A stretch of DNA of 64,000 bases from Flavobacterium aestivum. Lineage in GTDB: Bacteria; Bacteroidota; Bacteroidia; Flavobacteriales; Flavobacteriaceae. The position numbers and the translations under genes are program-made. The notes below the pieces were generated by a model, which saw nothing but the letters and a program-made list of their open reading frames with translations, searched no databases and was not told the origin of the DNA. Where the stretch lies: positions 682,001 to 746,000 of the forward strand of contig NZ_CP113977.2 of assembly GCF_026870175.2 (NCBI RefSeq), in the 5' to 3' direction. This document shows, piece after piece, positions 30,613 to 39,464 of this stretch (positions are counted from its first letter, which is position 1; each line of letters begins with the position of its first letter).

Positions 30613-32052
30613 TTAAAAAAACCAACTCGCCACAAAAATAGCGGTAATCACACAGATTAAATCCACCAAAAGCATAGTTCCTAAAGCGTAACGGGTATTT
30701 TTTATATTAACTGAACCAAAGTAAACGGCAATCACATAAAAAGTACTTTCTGCACTACATTGAAAAATACTACTCAATCTTCCCGTCAAAGAATCGGCTC
30801 CAAAAGTATTCATCGAATCGATCAAAAATCCTCTTGATCCCGCTGAACTAAAAGGTCTAAGCATTGCCACTGGTAAGGCATCGGTAATTTCTTTGTTTAC
30901 TCCCATATTAGAGAAAGCATAAGCAATCCAGTTACTGATAATTTCAAATAAACCGCTGTTTCTAAATAAAGAAATGGCAACTAACATTCCCAAAACATAT
31001 GGAAAAATAGTTACTCCGGTTTTTACACCATTATTGGCTCCCGACACGAAAGCTTCAAAAACGGTAGTCTTTGCCTCTGCAAATTTCTTTTCTTTTACAA
31101 AGGATAAGATTAAAGTAGCAACAATAATCACTACCAATATCAAAGCCGATAGATTCGAAGTAAAATAATTTTTACCTATTAAATCCAAATGGTTTACATA
31201 CATCAACAAACCAACTATCGCTGCAATCAGTGCCATCAAGGATACAACCAAAGAAGCGCTTTTGAAATTAATTTTTTGTTTGATTCCAACAATAAGGAAA
31301 GCGGCAATTGTGCCAATAAACGAAGTGATTATACAAGGCAACATTACATCGGCAGGATTGGTGGCATTAGCCGCTGCACGATAACCAATAATAGAAGTTG
31401 CGATTAATGTTAGCCCAGATGCGTGCAAACACATAAACATAATTTGGGCATCACTCGCCTTGTCTTTTTCGGGATTTATTTCTTGTAAACTCTCCATCGC
31501 TTTTAACCCAAATGGTGTTGCGGCTGAATCCAATCCCAAGAAATTGGCAGCAAAGTTTAAGGTCATATAAGAAATCGAAGGGTGATTTTTGGGAATGCTT
31601 GGAAACACTTTCACAAATACCGGACTTAATACTTTGGCTAATCTTTCAGAAGCTCCGGATATGATTAATAACTCCATCAAGCCGCAGAAAAATGCCAGAT
31701 AAGCAATAAGTGGTAAAATCAAATCTACCAAAGTGCTTTTGCAGGTTGGCAACAAACCATCTGATTTTTGAACTCCACTGAAAATTTTTACGGTTTTGTT
31801 TTTATAAACGTAAGTCGTGTCAGCATTTAGCGTATCACGATTGATAATCATGGTTTGATCTGGTGCTTTCTTGATACTATCCTTGATAAAAGCAGGAACC
31901 TGATGAATATATTTTTCGGACAGTAAAATTGGATCGTCTTTTTTCCCATTCAAGGTATAATCAATGGTGTAACTGTTTCCCGTAAATAAACTGACAACAA
32001 CAAATACAATTGAAGAAATGAAAATAACCAACCAAAATCTACTTAATACCAT
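30613..32052 (-). CDS. Fused SpmA/SpmB-like nucleoside-recognition (Gate) membrane protein
   Basis: This 479-residue polytopic membrane protein has an N-terminal TM segment (WLVIFISSIVFVVVSLF), an extracytoplasmic stretch (about 30-100), and then two Gate-domain halves. The first contains LIAYLAFFCGLMELLIISGASERLAK and LNFAANFLGLDSAATPFGLKAM (SpmA-like). The second contains GANNGVKTGVTIFPYVLGMLVAI and AMLRPFSSAGSRGFLIDSM (SpmB-like). In spore formers SpmA and SpmB are separate and act in spore dehydration; Bacteroidota do not sporulate, so the function here is unknown, perhaps transport. The family assignment is good and the role is open. Confidence 0.82.
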   Translation of the reverse strand: MVLSRFWLVIFISSIVFVVVSLFTGNSYTIDYTLNGKKDDPILLSEKYIHQVPAFIKDSIKKAPDQTMIINRDTLNADTTYVYKNKTVKIFSGVQKSDGLLPTCKSTLVDLILPLIAYLAFFCGLMELLIISGASERLAKVLSPVFVKVFPSIPKNHPSISYMTLNFAANFLGLDSAATPFGLKAMESLQEINPEKDKASDAQIMFMCLHASGLTLIATSIIGYRAAANATNPADVMLPCIITSFIGTIAAFLIVGIKQKINFKSASLVVSLMALIAAIVGLLMYVNHLDLIGKNYFTSNLSALILVVIIVATLILSFVKEKKFAEAKTTVFEAFVSGANNGVKTGVTIFPYVLGMLVAISLFRNSGLFEIISNWIAYAFSNMGVNKEITDALPVAMLRPFSSAGSRGFLIDSMNTFGADSLTGRLSSIFQCSAESTFYVIAVYFGSVNIKNTRYALGTMLLVDLICVITAIFVASWFF

Positions 32053-32089: not shown

Positions 32090-32124
32090 AAGACCTAACA
32101 GGTTTTAAAAACCTGTTAGGTCTT
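32090..32124 (-). repeat. REP-like palindrome, also terminator of the exonuclease gene
   Basis: AAGACCTAACAGGTTTT (32090-32106) is the exact complement of 32108-32124, a 35-bp near-perfect palindrome. On the minus strand it follows the exonuclease stop by 8 bp and runs into TTTTCTTTT, so it can act as an intrinsic terminator. Its core AGGTTTTTAAAAACCT and 28-base frame are shared with the two palindromes that flank the RAYT gene at 37.7-38.4 kb. Confidence 0.8.
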
Positions 32125-34722: not shown

Positions 34723-35667
34723 TTAAAATCCCGTTTTTTGATGAACGGTTTCAAATACTTCTTTTACTTTTTGGGGAGGATCAAAACGATAGCCTACCGT
34801 AAAATTTAAAGTGCCAACAGCATCATTCAATTGTACTCTAGTGTCACTGTCTTGCACAAATGCAATGTAATTTACGTTAACAAATGAAAAGAACGAATTG
34901 GTATTATAACCCAGCTTTAAACTCCCGCTAGAATTATAAATACCCGAAACTTCTCCATCCATATCACTAATTCCTCCTCCTATCCCTAATCCTGCCGATA
35001 GCAAAATCCTGTTGTTAATTACAAAATTATAATAATATGACGGAGATAATGTCATTTCAAAGAAATCACTTTCTGGGTTTTGACTTCCGTCATTCAGATC
35101 AAGATTGGTGTAAAAAAATGAAAAACTTGGAATAAAACTACCCGAACTTTTAGTTTGCCATTCTTTTTGATTTGCTATTGTTTTAAACGAAAAATTGGGA
35201 TTGAAAATATAGGAAGTAACACCTCCTATTTTGGTAGATCTCAGATTTGGCAAAGGAACTGTTACTGGTCCATCATTGACATAAAATCCTTTTTGATTAA
35301 TAAAACTAAGTGTTTGCATCCATTTTTTATGAATAAACCGTGTGCTCAAATTAAATAATTTTGAATCTCCATTGTCTTTGTTAGCATCAAAAAAACGAGG
35401 TGAAAATCCAAATGAAAAATCAGCCATTTTAAATGAAACACTTGCTCCTATTTGCTCTCTTCGGTTAGGAATCAGATCAAGTACTCTTTTTGTCCCATCT
35501 GTATTCGAACCAACAATCTGAAAAGCATTAGAAACATCCAAATAATACAAGCTGGCTATTACTTTGTCATCATACGTTTTGAAATACGAATTGGGGGTTG
35601 TCTTTTCTTGGGCAAAACAGCCAAGAATCCCACCAATCAAAATCAAACAAAACGTTTTTACAACCAT
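34723..35667 (-). CDS. Exported outer-membrane beta-barrel protein, DUF4421-like
   Basis: This 314-residue protein has a signal peptide (MVVKTFCLILIGGILGCFAQ). The rest alternates aromatic and polar residues in short strands (FFEMTLSPSYYYNFVINNRI; LNFTVGYRFDPP), as in outer-membrane barrels. The first strand region SYFKTYDDKVIASLYYLDVSN resembles DUF4421 proteins. Its role is unknown. It overlaps hemF by 10 bp and precedes hemB by 40 bp, so it is probably co-expressed with heme synthesis genes. Confidence 0.6.
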   Translation of the reverse strand: MVVKTFCLILIGGILGCFAQEKTTPNSYFKTYDDKVIASLYYLDVSNAFQIVGSNTDGTKRVLDLIPNRREQIGASVSFKMADFSFGFSPRFFDANKDNGDSKLFNLSTRFIHKKWMQTLSFINQKGFYVNDGPVTVPLPNLRSTKIGGVTSYIFNPNFSFKTIANQKEWQTKSSGSFIPSFSFFYTNLDLNDGSQNPESDFFEMTLSPSYYYNFVINNRILLSAGLGIGGGISDMDGEVSGIYNSSGSLKLGYNTNSFFSFVNVNYIAFVQDSDTRVQLNDAVGTLNFTVGYRFDPPQKVKEVFETVHQKTGF

Positions 35668-36560
35668 TCTTTCTGATTTTCTAATACTTTCAATAACTTT
35701 TCTTCTTGGCTTCCTGCCTCTGGATGATGATCATATACCCACTGTACATGCGGCGGTAAGCTCATCAGGATACTTTCTATCCTTCCGTTGGTTTTTAGCC
35801 CAAATAAAGTGCCTTTATCGTGTACTAAGTTGAATTCTACATAACGTCCTCGACGAATTTCCTGCCAAGTTCTGTTCTCAGGTGTGTAAGTCAAGTTTTT
35901 TCTTCTTTCGACTATTGGAACGTAGGCTTCCAGAAAACTATTTCCCACTTCAGTAACAAAATTATACCAATCTTGCATACTCATAGCGTCATTTGCTTTG
36001 CAATAATCAAAGAATAATCCGCCAATTCCTCTAGCTTCATTACGATGCGCGTTCCAAAAATAGGCATCGCATTGTTTTTTATACTTTGGGTAAAACTCCT
36101 GATTGTGTTTGTCACAAGCCGTTTTACAGGTTTGATGAAAATGAACGGCATCTTCTTCAAATAGATAATAAGGCGTTAAATCCTGTCCGCCTCCAAACCA
36201 TTGCTGAATCACTTTTCCGTTATCATCGTACATTTCGAAATAACGCCAATTGGCATGAACTGTTGGTACCATTGGACTTTTGGGATGCAAAACCAAACTC
36301 AAACCGCAGGCAAAAAAATCTGCTTCGCCTACATTGAACATTTTTTGCATCGTTTCAGGCAATTTCCCGTGTACTGCCGAAATATTAACACCACCTTTTT
36401 CAAAAACGGCCCCATTTTCAATAACACGGGTACGCCCTCCTCCTCCTTCTGGACGATCCCAAAGGTCTTCACGAAATTTGGCTTGACCATCCACGTTTTC
36501 TAATCCTTTACAGATTTGGTCTTGAAGGTTTTGTATATAAGAGAAAAATTGTTCTTTCAT
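35658..36560 (-). CDS. hemF: Oxygen-dependent coproporphyrinogen III oxidase
   Basis: This 300-residue cytosolic enzyme decarboxylates two propionates of coproporphyrinogen III using O2. Family motifs seen are REDLWDRPEGGGGRTRVIENG, FEKGGVNISAVHG, the GGGQDLTPYYLFEEDA segment, and GRYVEFNLVHDKGTLFGLKT. The length is normal. Use of the O2-dependent form, together with HemJ in the same cluster, points to an aerobic route. It overlaps the next gene by 10 bp. Confidence 0.97.
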   Translation of the reverse strand: MKEQFFSYIQNLQDQICKGLENVDGQAKFREDLWDRPEGGGGRTRVIENGAVFEKGGVNISAVHGKLPETMQKMFNVGEADFFACGLSLVLHPKSPMVPTVHANWRYFEMYDDNGKVIQQWFGGGQDLTPYYLFEEDAVHFHQTCKTACDKHNQEFYPKYKKQCDAYFWNAHRNEARGIGGLFFDYCKANDAMSMQDWYNFVTEVGNSFLEAYVPIVERRKNLTYTPENRTWQEIRRGRYVEFNLVHDKGTLFGLKTNGRIESILMSLPPHVQWVYDHHPEAGSQEEKLLKVLENQKEWL

Positions 36561-36679: not shown

Positions 36680-37210
36680 TCATTTCGTTAGTTCATATAA
36701 TTCCATATCTATTGGAAGTTCATCCGTTGGCGTAAACTCATTTGGCAAGGTTCTTTGCCAAACAAACCCAGATTTTACGGCCACCTTTACACTCCCCAAA
36801 TTCGTTTTATGCGATATAATTTGAAGGGTGTTCAAATTCAGCTCATTGAATGCAAAGTTTGAAACTTCTTTGACAGCAAAAGTAACTAAACCCTTCCCTT
36901 CATATTCAGCACCAATACCATAAGCCAATTCTGCTTGTCGCGTTTCAAAATCAACTTTTTTGATAGCAATCAGACCCGCTATGTTTTCAGTTTCTTTTTC
37001 TTTTATGGCAAACGTATAACAAATGTTAGATTGCAGCTCTGATGTTTTAATATTAATATAGTTTGCTGAATCTTCTAAAGTCAGATTACTAGATAATGTT
37101 TGAGGAAAATATCTTTTGAATCTTTCGGCATTTGAAACCATTAATTCATTCAGATTTTTTGCGTCGTTGTCATCCAGTAGGGCAATATGGAATGAGTTTA
37201 TATAATGCAT
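36680..37210 (-). CDS. GNAT acetyltransferase, RimJ/RimL type
   Basis: This 176-residue protein has a GNAT fold. The acetyl-CoA-binding region is around ELAYGIGAEYEGKGLVTFAVKEV, and the LNTLQIISHKTNLGSVKVAVKSGFVWQRTL segment is typical of the RimJ/RimL group that acetylates N-terminal amino groups. The actual substrate is unknown. It lies within the hem gene row between hemF and hemE with no obvious link to heme. Confidence 0.82.
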   Translation of the reverse strand: MHYINSFHIALLDDNDAKNLNELMVSNAERFKRYFPQTLSSNLTLEDSANYINIKTSELQSNICYTFAIKEKETENIAGLIAIKKVDFETRQAELAYGIGAEYEGKGLVTFAVKEVSNFAFNELNLNTLQIISHKTNLGSVKVAVKSGFVWQRTLPNEFTPTDELPIDMELYELTK

Positions 37211-37284: not shown

Positions 37285-37662
37285 TTAATTTATTTTTGCA
37301 TTGGCAATTTTTGCACTTATTCCAAACGAAAACGTCTTGCTTTCCTGTTGAATATAATTGTAAATGGCAATGGCTTTTTGTGAAAAATCAAATTGACTTC
37401 CTTTTGAAAAAGCGACTAAAAAATCGGCAAATAATTCGAACTGATTCCAATCAAAATGTAGGCGTTCCAAATGGGTAATCAATTCATCTTCTTTAAATTC
37501 CCCTAGACTCTCGACATTCATCGCCAAATCTTTTAACTCATTTTCTAGGTAAAGAAGATCTTCTAAATTCCAAAACTTAGGCACATAAACCAATGACATC
37601 AGCTTTTTGAGCATGTTGTCAATCCGAATACTTTCTTGGTCTCTTAAGCCTTTGTTTAGCAT
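37285..37662 (-). CDS. Uncharacterised small alpha-helical protein
   Basis: I do not recognise this 125-residue protein. It has no signal peptide or membrane segment and is rich in Leu, Glu, Lys and Phe, with a likely all-helical fold (LEDLLYLENELKDLAMNVESLGEFKEDELITHLERL). It sits between the GNAT gene and the RAYT gene inside the hem row and has normal base composition, so it is probably a real gene conserved in relatives. Confidence 0.6.
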   Translation of the reverse strand: MLNKGLRDQESIRIDNMLKKLMSLVYVPKFWNLEDLLYLENELKDLAMNVESLGEFKEDELITHLERLHFDWNQFELFADFLVAFSKGSQFDFSQKAIAIYNYIQQESKTFSFGISAKIANAKIN

Positions 37663-37689: not shown

Positions 37690-37717
37690 CCTGCAAGGTT
37701 TTAAAAAACCTTGTAGG
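37690..37717 (-). repeat. REP-like palindrome downstream of the RAYT gene
   Basis: CCTGCAAGGTTTT (37690-37702) pairs with AAAACCTTGTAGG (37705-37717) with a single mismatch. It lies about 80 bp behind the RAYT stop. It is the inverted counterpart of the copy at 38385-38411: read in opposite directions, both begin CCTGCAAGG and end CCTTGTAGG. Confidence 0.82.
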
Positions 37718-37795
37718 TATCACTTTTGTGCTATCCTTTTATATCATAACTTCAAGATTTGAAAAAATCTGGGAGAGATACATACTCCCAATAAT

Positions 37796-38347
37796 TTATT
37801 CAAAAGTATATTTTTCCGTCAAAAAATCATTTCTTTGAATGTGGCAAAAAATGAAATTTTCTAGACCTCCAAATAATTTTAAAACTTCTTCTCTTTCAAT
37901 TTTTGTTTCTTTATTTGAGATGAAAGCCGGATAGGATGAATACTTATAATTCTCAAATTTTAAATCCAAATGATGCTTCGGATTCAAATGCACATACTGT
38001 ATCAATTGCTTCAAATACTCTTCATCATTGAGTCTTATTCTCTTGAAATGCTTTTCAAATAAACTCCCTGTCCTATCACTTTCTTTATTAAAAGCTTTCG
38101 CATAAGAATTAAAAAAATTAGAAAATGCCTGTGTTACTATTTTTTCCTCTTCATTCAATCGAATAACCAAATGAAAATGATTATCCATTAAACAATATGC
38201 AAATATTGAGATTTTACCTGATAAATATTTTGAAAGTTGTTTCAAAAAGAAGTTTTTGTTTTCATCATTTTCGAAAATTAAACACTTATTTATACCTCTG
38301 TTATAAATATGATAATAACCCTCTTTTTCTAAAACTTCTAATTTCAT
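37796..38347 (-). CDS. REP-associated tyrosine transposase (RAYT, Y1_Tnp/TnpA_REP)
   Basis: The ATG at 38347 is taken as start; a GTG two codons earlier is possible. The 183-residue protein is an IS200-like single-strand DNA transposase: the N-terminal GYYHIYNRGINK, the metal-binding HUH motif in CLMDNHFHLVI (H57-F-H59) and the catalytic Tyr82 in FFNSYAKAFNK, followed by GSLFEKHFKRI. The C-terminal part (LIQYVHLNPKHH; YKYSSYPAF) is typical of RAYTs. Such enzymes cut and join REP palindromes. REP-like palindromes lie on both sides in inverted orientation, and a third relative is at 32090-32124. All key residues are intact, so it may be active. It interrupts the hem row between hemE and hemF. 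Confidence 0.92.
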   Translation of the reverse strand: MKLEVLEKEGYYHIYNRGINKCLIFENDENKNFFLKQLSKYLSGKISIFAYCLMDNHFHLVIRLNEEEKIVTQAFSNFFNSYAKAFNKESDRTGSLFEKHFKRIRLNDEEYLKQLIQYVHLNPKHHLDLKFENYKYSSYPAFISNKETKIEREEVLKLFGGLENFIFCHIQRNDFLTEKYTFE

Positions 38348-38384
38348 AAACACTCATTCTTTTGAAATAACGTTTTCTAACACA

Positions 38385-38411
38385 CCTACAAGGTTCAAAA
38401 AACCTTGCAGG
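38385..38411 (-). repeat. REP-like palindrome upstream of the RAYT gene
   Basis: CCTACAAGGTT (38385-38395) pairs with AACCTTGCAGG (38401-38411) with one mismatch. It lies 37 bp upstream of the RAYT start and in opposite orientation to the copy at 37690-37717. The gene-flanking inverted pair is the usual arrangement of RAYT with its REP substrate. Confidence 0.82.
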
Positions 38412-38438: not shown

Positions 38439-39464
38439 TTAGTTTCCGTATTCCTTCACCGCATCAATAAATGCTTTGGCGTGATCTACTGGAATATTTG
38501 GTAAAATTCCGTGACCTAAATTTACTATGTATTTGTCTTTTCCAAATTCGTCAATCATTTCGTGTACCATTTTCTTGATGGTCGGAATTGGCGAAAGCAA
38601 TCTTGAAGGATCAAAATTTCCTTGTAAAGTTACGTTCCCTCCAGACAAATAACGAGCATTTCTAGGTGTACATGTCCAATCTACACCCAAAGCTGATGCC
38701 TTGCTTTTTCCCATTTCGTTAAGAGCAAACCAACATCCTTTTCCGAAAACAATTACCGGTGTAATTTCCGCTAATGCTTCAATGATTTGGTTAATGTATT
38801 TCCATGAGAATTCCTGATAATCTGTTGGTGAAAGCATTCCTCCCCAAGAATCAAAAATCTGAACTGCATTTACTCCTGCTTTTACTTTTTCTTTTAAATA
38901 TAAAATCGTTGTGTCGGTAATTTTTTGCAATAAAGTGTGTGCAGCTACTGGGTTTGAAAAACAAAACCCTTTGGCAGTATCAAAACTTTTCGATCCTTTT
39001 CCTTCTACTGCATAACAGAAAATAGTCCAAGGTGAACCTGCAAAACCAATTAATGGCACCTCATCATTCAGCATTTCTTTGGTCAATTTTACCGCATCCA
39101 TTACATAACCCAAGGTTTCCTGAATATTTGGAACAAAAACCTGATTTACTTGTTCCATGGTACGTATTGGATTTGGAATTATTGGTCCCAAATTATCTTT
39201 CAATTCTACGTGAATTCCCATTGCTCTTGGCACTACTAAAATATCCGAGAACAAAATAGCTGCATCCGGAGCAATTCTACGAATAGGTTGCACGGTAATT
39301 TCGGCAGCCAATTCTGGAGTTTCGCAACGGGTAAAAAAATCGTATTTGTCACGCAAAGCTCTAAATTCAGGCAAATATCTTCCGGCTTGACGCATCATCC
39401 AAACCGGTGGGCGTTGTACTGTTTCTCCTTTTAAAGCTTTTAAAAATAAATCGTTCTTTAGCAT
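38439..39464 (-). CDS. hemE: Uroporphyrinogen decarboxylase
   Basis: This 341-residue enzyme converts uroporphyrinogen III to coproporphyrinogen III by removing four carboxyl groups. The N-terminal signature [21 protein letters not shown] is complete, including the conserved Arg residues and the catalytic Asp region [33 protein letters not shown] and [15 protein letters not shown] are also present. It follows hemD by about 90 bp in the hem row. Confidence 0.97.

Follow-up and report, generated by a model that had tools for sequence, protein, structure and literature searches.

A single-copy RAYT-like transposase gene and its palindromes in the heme neighbourhood of Flavobacterium aestivum

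Introduction

In Flavobacterium aestivum, a gene for a small Y1/HUH transposase, here called RAYT1, lies among heme genes with a palindrome on each side. Is this a system of the REP/RAYT kind, an insertion sequence caught in a gene cluster, or a gene that is merely framed by two hairpins? We analysed a window of 64,000 nucleotides, corresponding to bases 682001-746000 of the single-contig genome (4.58 Mb). An original prediction, made from the letters of the window, had proposed a live REP/RAYT system between hemE and hemF. Our analysis indicated that RAYT1 and its palindromes are a REP/RAYT-like system, real and well supported, that is small in this genome and seems to be old and maintained by vertical descent.

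Results

The RAYT1 gene and its protein

The gene and its motifs were located as follows.
37796..38347, minus strand: RAYT1, Y1/HUH transposase of 183 aa, reading frame intact from ATG
38171..38179, minus strand: HUH motif H57-F58-H59 (HFH), both H invariant among 54 aligned RAYTs
37994..37996, minus strand: putative catalytic Tyr118 within YVHLNP, in at least 90% of 54 aligned RAYTs

A 183-residue Y1/HUH protein with HUH motif, catalytic tyrosine and a palindrome on each side had been predicted; the motifs, the Pfam match and the coordinates all agreed with this. RAYT1 passed the Pfam Y1_Tnp model (25 bits, cut-off 23), and it joins a Y1 domain, an HUH motif and Y...NP, the combination that marks a RAYT (TnpA-REP). 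It scored 54.4 bits against the NCBIfam RAYT equivalog NF047646, under the 80-bit cut-off of that model, and a PDB sequence search with RAYT1 matched nothing at E 0.01. The genome encodes three RAYTs (183, 196 and 203 aa), in which Y1_Tnp was the sole Pfam domain. Among 28 distant homologues (L251-L278), 27 had NHFH and YIHLNP was common, and therefore these motifs are widespread.

Our genus sample comprised 199 genomes, 84 of them with a RAYT match. RAYT1 was found in 30, as full genes (at least 56% identity) in 28, always one full-length gene per genome, and as fragments in G003 and G149. Nei-Gojobori dN/dS had a median of 0.08 and a maximum of 0.14 over 36 pairs among the nine closest RAYT1 genes, and was 0.07 among eight other RAYT1 genes; all of these values are rough because dS was about 1 or higher. 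RAYT1 is under strong purifying selection (dN/dS about 0.08, a rough figure).

Two inverted palindromes flank RAYT1

The palindromes on the two sides of the gene were the following.
37690..37717, plus strand: RCA-type palindrome CCTGCAAGG..CCTTGTAGG, 3' of RAYT1, GCA arm outwards
38385..38411, plus strand: RCA-type palindrome CCTACAAGG..CCTTGCAGG, 5' of RAYT1, inverted, GCA arm outwards

They are 27-28 bp long, belong to the type CCT-RCA-AGG..CCT-TGY-AGG (RCA type) and are mutually inverted. The GTA arm points inwards at both, and the asymmetry and opposite orientation described previously were thus confirmed. Folded as single-stranded DNA, the left and right palindromes were 5.9 and 4.5 sd more stable than dinucleotide shuffles, and they exceed chance. 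When each was folded in the plus direction of the window, the left one contained a G.T pair (-9.8 kcal/mol) and the right one an A.C mismatch (-7.7 kcal/mol), the latter being the opposite strand of the G.T unit.

RCA-type palindromes were present within 400 bp of the gene at all 28 full-length RAYT1 loci of the genus sample, and on both sides at 26. The outermost copy had the GT orientation upstream of the gene at 22 of 27 loci, and the AC orientation downstream of it at 21 of 27. Using a regular expression open to all four combinations, we found that 201 of the 223 distinct RCA palindromes of the fetched loci kept the asymmetric pair.

The arms of the palindromes were often inverted repeats themselves. 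For 12 automatically chosen arms, which were partly redundant and included one artefact, the mean internal stem was 4.0 bp, compared with 2.4 bp in shuffles (0 of 2000 reached the observed value). In 16 hand-picked arms, self-complementarity amounted to 63 of 69 paired, compared with a null of 18.9. A single long hairpin is one possible fold of the element; in the other, two small hairpins would expose the variable triplet in a loop. In folding, whole palindromes gave the long hairpin and excised halves gave weak small hairpins.

Other palindromes and RAYTs of the genome

The original prediction depended on the palindromes recurring elsewhere in the genome, and they do: the pattern CCTNNNAGGT N4-12 ACCTNNNAGG was found at 12 places and the same pattern read backwards at none. 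Four places were of the RCA type, namely the two beside RAYT1 and two that form a gene-less inverted doublet. The other eight were of a second type (AAC), four around RAYT2 as two doublets and four single, with the one at 32094-32120 of the window among the single ones. A fixed-spacing rescan of this genome with up to 3 mismatches revealed no further RCA-type palindromes. The elements concerned, with C1 denoting the contig of this genome, were:
C1:1470298-1470377: gene-less inverted RCA doublet, the arrangement of a REPIN
32090..32124 of the window, no strand assigned: 35-bp perfect palindrome of the AAC type, core CCTAACAGG..CCTGTTAGG at 32094-32120
C1:1307555-1308145: RAYT2 (L014), with AAC palindromes, between two palindrome doublets
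C1:3690262-3690873: RAYT3 (L082), a more distant RAYT, beside a third-type palindrome CCTGTCGGG..CCCGACAGG

The 35-bp palindrome of the window had been noted as a third one with the same frame. It is real and perfect. The core, however, is AGGTTTTAAAAACCT, which has one T less than in the description, and the palindrome carries the mark of another RAYT, because the AAC type flanks RAYT2. The proposal of a live REP/RAYT system was right as to a RAYT with cognate palindromes, which is supported by the copy numbers, the agreement of palindrome types with the tree and the inverted doublets, whereas "live" goes beyond the evidence because this genome has just four RAYT1-type palindromes, with one doublet away from the gene.

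The other two RAYTs also had characteristic neighbours. In all 16 fetched relatives, RAYT2 had an alpha-2-macroglobulin-like gene on one side and a transglycosylase gene on the other. A CorA-like and/or Hsp70 neighbour was retained in all nine near relatives of RAYT3 (the CCCGACAGG clade), and was not seen among its wider relatives, which have other palindromes.

The gene-less doublet of this genome resembled a segment of G177 (C12, about 417.4 kb; L294), with 86% identity over 176 bp that covered the doublet and mainly its downstream flank. From this similarity, the doublet common to the two genomes would be inherited or transferred.

The heme neighbourhood

The genes around RAYT1 in the window were:
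38439..39464, minus strand: hemE (URO-D), upstream neighbour of RAYT1
37285..37662, minus strand: orf125, 125 aa, no Pfam match, downstream neighbour of RAYT1
36680..37210, minus strand: GNAT acetyltransferase
35658..36560, minus strand: hemF (coproporphyrinogen oxidase)
30613..32052, minus strand: 479-aa Gate-domain protein of the same gene block, adjoined by another RAYT1 slot in some relatives

RAYT1 thus lies between hemE and hemF as proposed, but not directly, orf125 and the GNAT gene also being there. In the 28 genus loci, the upstream block gene was hemE in 21, the 479-aa Gate protein in five (with fumarase downstream in four of these) and the hemA/hemB side in two. In a catalogued set of 52 loci (L199-L250), which partly overlaps the 28 and includes Paenimyroides, Aquimarina, Aequorivita, Algibacter and Flavivirga, a heme-block gene adjoined the RAYT1 relative in 50, the exceptions being L228 (contig edge) and L235. 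Eight of the 50 were tied through the 479-aa gene alone, mostly with fumarase. hemE was 5-17 kb off in the four of these that could be measured (G141, G155, G092 and G032); the remaining four, L223, L224, L227 and L232, gave no hemE distance. Among 45 loci with full flanks, both hemE and hemF were within 2.5 kb in 31, one of the two in four and neither in 10.

RAYT distances correlated with hemE distances (r = 0.68, 32 loci, leaving out L203 as a near-duplicate of L202; 0 of 5000 permutations). RAYT1 therefore combines the low copy number and the vertical inheritance typical of RAYTs.

Five slots of RAYT1 were distinguished: A, after hemE; B, before hemF; C, between hemD and hemE; D, on the side of the 479-aa protein; and E, past a divergent hemA. 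In slots A-D, RAYT1 runs in the same direction as the listed block genes. The slot changed seven times on a quick tree of 61 rows, from which 14 identical rows, L229 and L250 were left out. Slots A and B may differ by gain or loss of intervening genes; for slots C, D and E, either RAYT1 or its neighbours must have moved.

Gene presence and palindrome copy number

RCA palindromes were found in all 30 RAYT1 genomes (median 16), compared with 68 of the 169 genomes without RAYT1 (median 0). A Mann-Whitney test, which ignores kinship, gave p = 3.6e-15. Thus, equal abundance in relatives lacking the gene, which would have spoken against the original prediction, was not observed overall, but 13 RAYT1-less genomes had at least 10 copies. 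RCA-type copies ranged from 0 to 81 per genome. When copies within 500 bp of RAYT1 were subtracted, the median was still 14 in the 28 genomes with a full gene, and four had none elsewhere. With flanking palindromes at 28 of 28 loci and copies elsewhere in 24 of 28 genomes, the flanks of RAYT1 are repeated in the genome as those of RAYTs are.

The second pair behaved similarly. AAC palindromes occurred in all 17 RAYT2 genomes (median 19), compared with 46 of 182 without RAYT2, kinship again being ignored; seven RAYT2-less genomes had at least 10 copies. Some genomes of the genus carry RAYT1 and RAYT2 together. In tests that likewise ignore kinship, RAYT2 genomes had more RCA copies (p = 6e-5), and RAYT1 genomes had slightly more AAC copies (p = 0.019). 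The cross-pairs are weaker than the own pairs, though not nil.

The 13 RCA-rich genomes without RAYT1 include G008, with 66 palindromes and no RAYT match, and G102, with 79 and a RAYT2-type gene only. We read them as cases of later gene loss. Among 30 fetched hemE loci, five came from RAYT1 genomes, and an RCA palindrome followed hemE in four of 24 readable RAYT1-less loci (G112, G046, G005 and G102). Gene-less palindromes occupy the hemE-orf125 gap in G112 and G046; their inner flanks, by eye, resemble the RAYT1 leader and end, which fits gene loss at that gap. A search of the hemE spacers of RAYT1-less genomes for RAYT1 remnants gave no convincing match (best E 0.048). Imperfect copies made up a larger part of the RCA palindromes in RAYT1-less genomes (median ratio 1.21 versus 1.0; p = 0.012, one-sided, post hoc) in a test that is weak, as its fixed spacing misses longer palindromes in several RAYT1 genomes.

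Two other palindromic repeat families seemed, by eye, to occupy the spot after hemE in RAYT1-less relatives, one at L056, L068, L081, L194 and L197, and the other at L053, L073, L074 and L195.

Inverted doublets with the GTA arms inside, the orientation that was searched, occurred in 59 of the 199 genomes, some of them beside RAYT1. By eye, many had the inner edges GGTWT..AWACC. In the REP-rich genome G079 the interiors were almost all distinct, save one tandem pair (also by eye), and therefore give no clear sign that whole doublets were copied recently. A doublet with similar interior was located directly before hemE in G054, G079, G121 and G178, and one in G102 had an interior that differed more. 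A single doublet can therefore be inherited at one site, as in those four genomes.

Palindrome type follows the RAYT clade

We examined 106 RAYT loci: 30 from the RAYT search of the genus genomes (that of RAYT1 in the window included), the two further RAYTs of this genome and 74 around other matches. Some short, weak or fragmentary matches, among them those in G003, G009, G034, G116 and G162, were left out. A sequence-agnostic finder detected a palindrome no more than 250 bp from the gene at 91 of the 106 loci, compared with one of 318 mononucleotide shuffles. Of the 15 loci where it found none, six were RAYT1 loci that it missed and four had the most distant proteins (27-28% identity).

The RAYT tree comprised 102 proteins of at least 170 aa, the four shorter ones being dropped; 92 were typed, six RAYT1 loci by regular expression. 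Eleven palindrome types changed 12 times on this tree, whereas 200 label shuffles required at least 50 changes (mean 57.7). The tree is a quick one with many weak deep forks, and one of the 11 types lumps, by our own choice, every CCCT-NNN-AGGG word, such as CCCT-AAC-AGGG at L156. Each RAYT thus has its own REP family, as is characteristic of RAYTs, the exceptions being copy-rich genomes without a matching gene.

Within the heme block the palindromes were RCA in Flavobacterium and Aquimarina, GCG/ACA in Algibacter, and GTC/GAC in Flavivirga and L245. The sequence comparisons suggest that RAYT1 has been kept in the heme neighbourhood for long, and that gene and palindrome changed together.

Discussion

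Comparison with known systems

According to the portions of PMC8049555, PMC8266576 and PMC6006769 that describe them, REP/RAYT systems (TnpA-REP, REPtron) of E. coli, Pseudomonas and Stenotrophomonas (subclasses 2.2 and 2.5; Bertels groups 2 and 3) resemble the RAYT1 system in several respects: a single-copy Y1/HUH gene, flanking palindromes, cognate specificity, gene-less inverted pairs (REPINs) and REPINs that survive in RAYT-less genomes. In E. coli, REPINs are commoner with a RAYT, yet present without one (PMC8049555, in part). Copy numbers differ, with 0 to 81 RCA-type copies per genome compared with 91-323 REPINs in the systems treated in that portion of PMC8049555. Two structural features also differ. 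The arms are themselves inverted repeats, and GT[AG]G, which canonical REPs have at the 5' foot of the hairpin (subclasses 2.2, 2.4, 2.5, 2.7 and 2.8), is absent there; GTAG occurs inside the 3' arm alone in the RCA type and nowhere in the AAC and CCCGACAGG palindromes.

Two other subclasses have to be considered, both as summarised in part of PMC6006769. TnpA-Y1 subclass 2.6 (Bertels group 5) is found mostly in Bacteroidetes and has "atypical secondary structures" without GT[AG]G and with genomic copies elsewhere. The RAYT1 system shares the phylum, palindromes without GT[AG]G and the copies elsewhere, but the subclass motifs NH[LIV]H, WQ and YIH[QN]NP (Table 1) differ from NHFH, FE and YVHLNP of RAYT1, and the 2.6 palindromes are called weaker, a comparison of descriptions and not of sequences. 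Subclass 2.1 (Bertels group 1; TIRYT) has similar motifs, NH[YF]H, FQ and Y[IV]HLNP (same table); however, it is credited there with a C-terminal HTH domain, a median of 238 aa and no REP-like sequences found, while the RAYTs of this genome have Y1_Tnp only and do have palindromes. By their motifs, these RAYTs look nearer to subclass 2.1 than to 2.6, and none of the subclasses as summarised there seems to fit cleanly. With subclass 2.6 described in PMC6006769, RAYTs that lie between palindromes already have an outline precedent in this phylum. PMC3733652 describes RAYTs with inverted repeats of other kinds at their sides. In searches of open-licence papers, none of the listed titles or abstract openings dealt with Flavobacterium REPs, a heme address, or palindrome types tracking RAYT clades there. 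The points of interest are the palindrome series and the heme address.

Alternative explanations

IS200/IS605 insertion sequences have a Y1 transposase domain and hairpin ends. RAYT1 resembles them in both, and it occupies several intergenic slots in relatives, as an element hopping whole and caught in the heme cluster might. Such an element should leave several near-identical gene copies, and these were absent: each of 28 genomes had one full-length RAYT1, inherited in step with hemE as the distances showed. Moreover, the ends are mutually inverted, palindrome pairs exist without a gene, and RAYT2 and the near relatives of RAYT3 likewise hold fixed neighbours. We consider an ordinary insertion sequence very improbable. 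It is also improbable, though some signs point that way, that the palindromes serve mainly to end transcription or to form hairpins at mRNA ends, that they were spread or retained for this use, and that two of them merely frame RAYT1. Some copies begin right past a gene end (31 bp after hemE; after a 443-aa ORF in L014), the left palindrome was called terminator-like on the plus strand, and the other repeats seen by eye after hemE in several relatives would suit such a function. However, the terminator scan gave 2 compared with 1.4 in shuffles, and this explanation does not account for the match of type to RAYT clade, the inverted doublets and the asymmetry kept in 201 of 223 palindromes. A secondary terminator role of RCA palindromes is possible.

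RAYT1 might also have lost its activity on the palindromes and serve instead in regulation or in some other process on single-stranded DNA, while the palindromes persist passively. The few RCA copies in this genome, the REP-rich genomes without RAYT1 and the nearly all distinct doublet interiors of G079 (by eye) are consistent with such a loss. On the other hand, palindrome type and protein stayed matched across deep divergence, also where the type changes within the heme block, and passive relics are disfavoured because they would hardly change type along with the protein. The excess of imperfect copies in RAYT1-less genomes (the post hoc, fixed-spacing comparison above) also speaks against it. 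On balance we regard this loss of activity as unlikely.

A model for RAYT1 and its palindromes

We think it very probable that RAYT1 is a domesticated Y1/HUH transposase, present in one copy and passed on vertically, which recognises, nicks and joins palindromes of its own type and multiplied them, now or formerly. By analogy with the systems treated in part of PMC8266576, we infer the following steps. RAYT1 would bind its own-type 27-28 bp palindrome folded as single-stranded DNA. The two strands would be marked by the conserved G.T pair on one and the A.C mismatch on the other, and RAYT1 may pick the strand by the mismatch. It would then cut and rejoin the palindromes and, at present or formerly, would have multiplied them as gene-less inverted doublets (REPIN-like). 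Binding, cleavage, copying and strand choice are thus presumed activities, as would be any benefit to the host.

A bolder idea, which we hold only tentatively and think rather doubtful, is that RAYT1 itself moves, only among palindrome-marked gaps of one heme neighbourhood, and that the protein reads the three-base word in CCT-NNN-AGG as an address code. A marked old gap has so far been seen in a single genome, G092: its RAYT1 is in slot D, about 5 kb off, and an RCA doublet (L300:8400-8474) lies in the hemE-hemF gap. If the idea is true, REPs would guide a RAYT gene over short distances, and its recognition word could be exchanged.

A single genus thus holds many RAYT/palindrome pairs that change together, with palindrome words differing in a few bases and with RAYT-less genomes that retain palindromes. 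Through this genus, it should be possible to test how RAYTs read hairpins and why bacteria retain single-copy transposases for so long.
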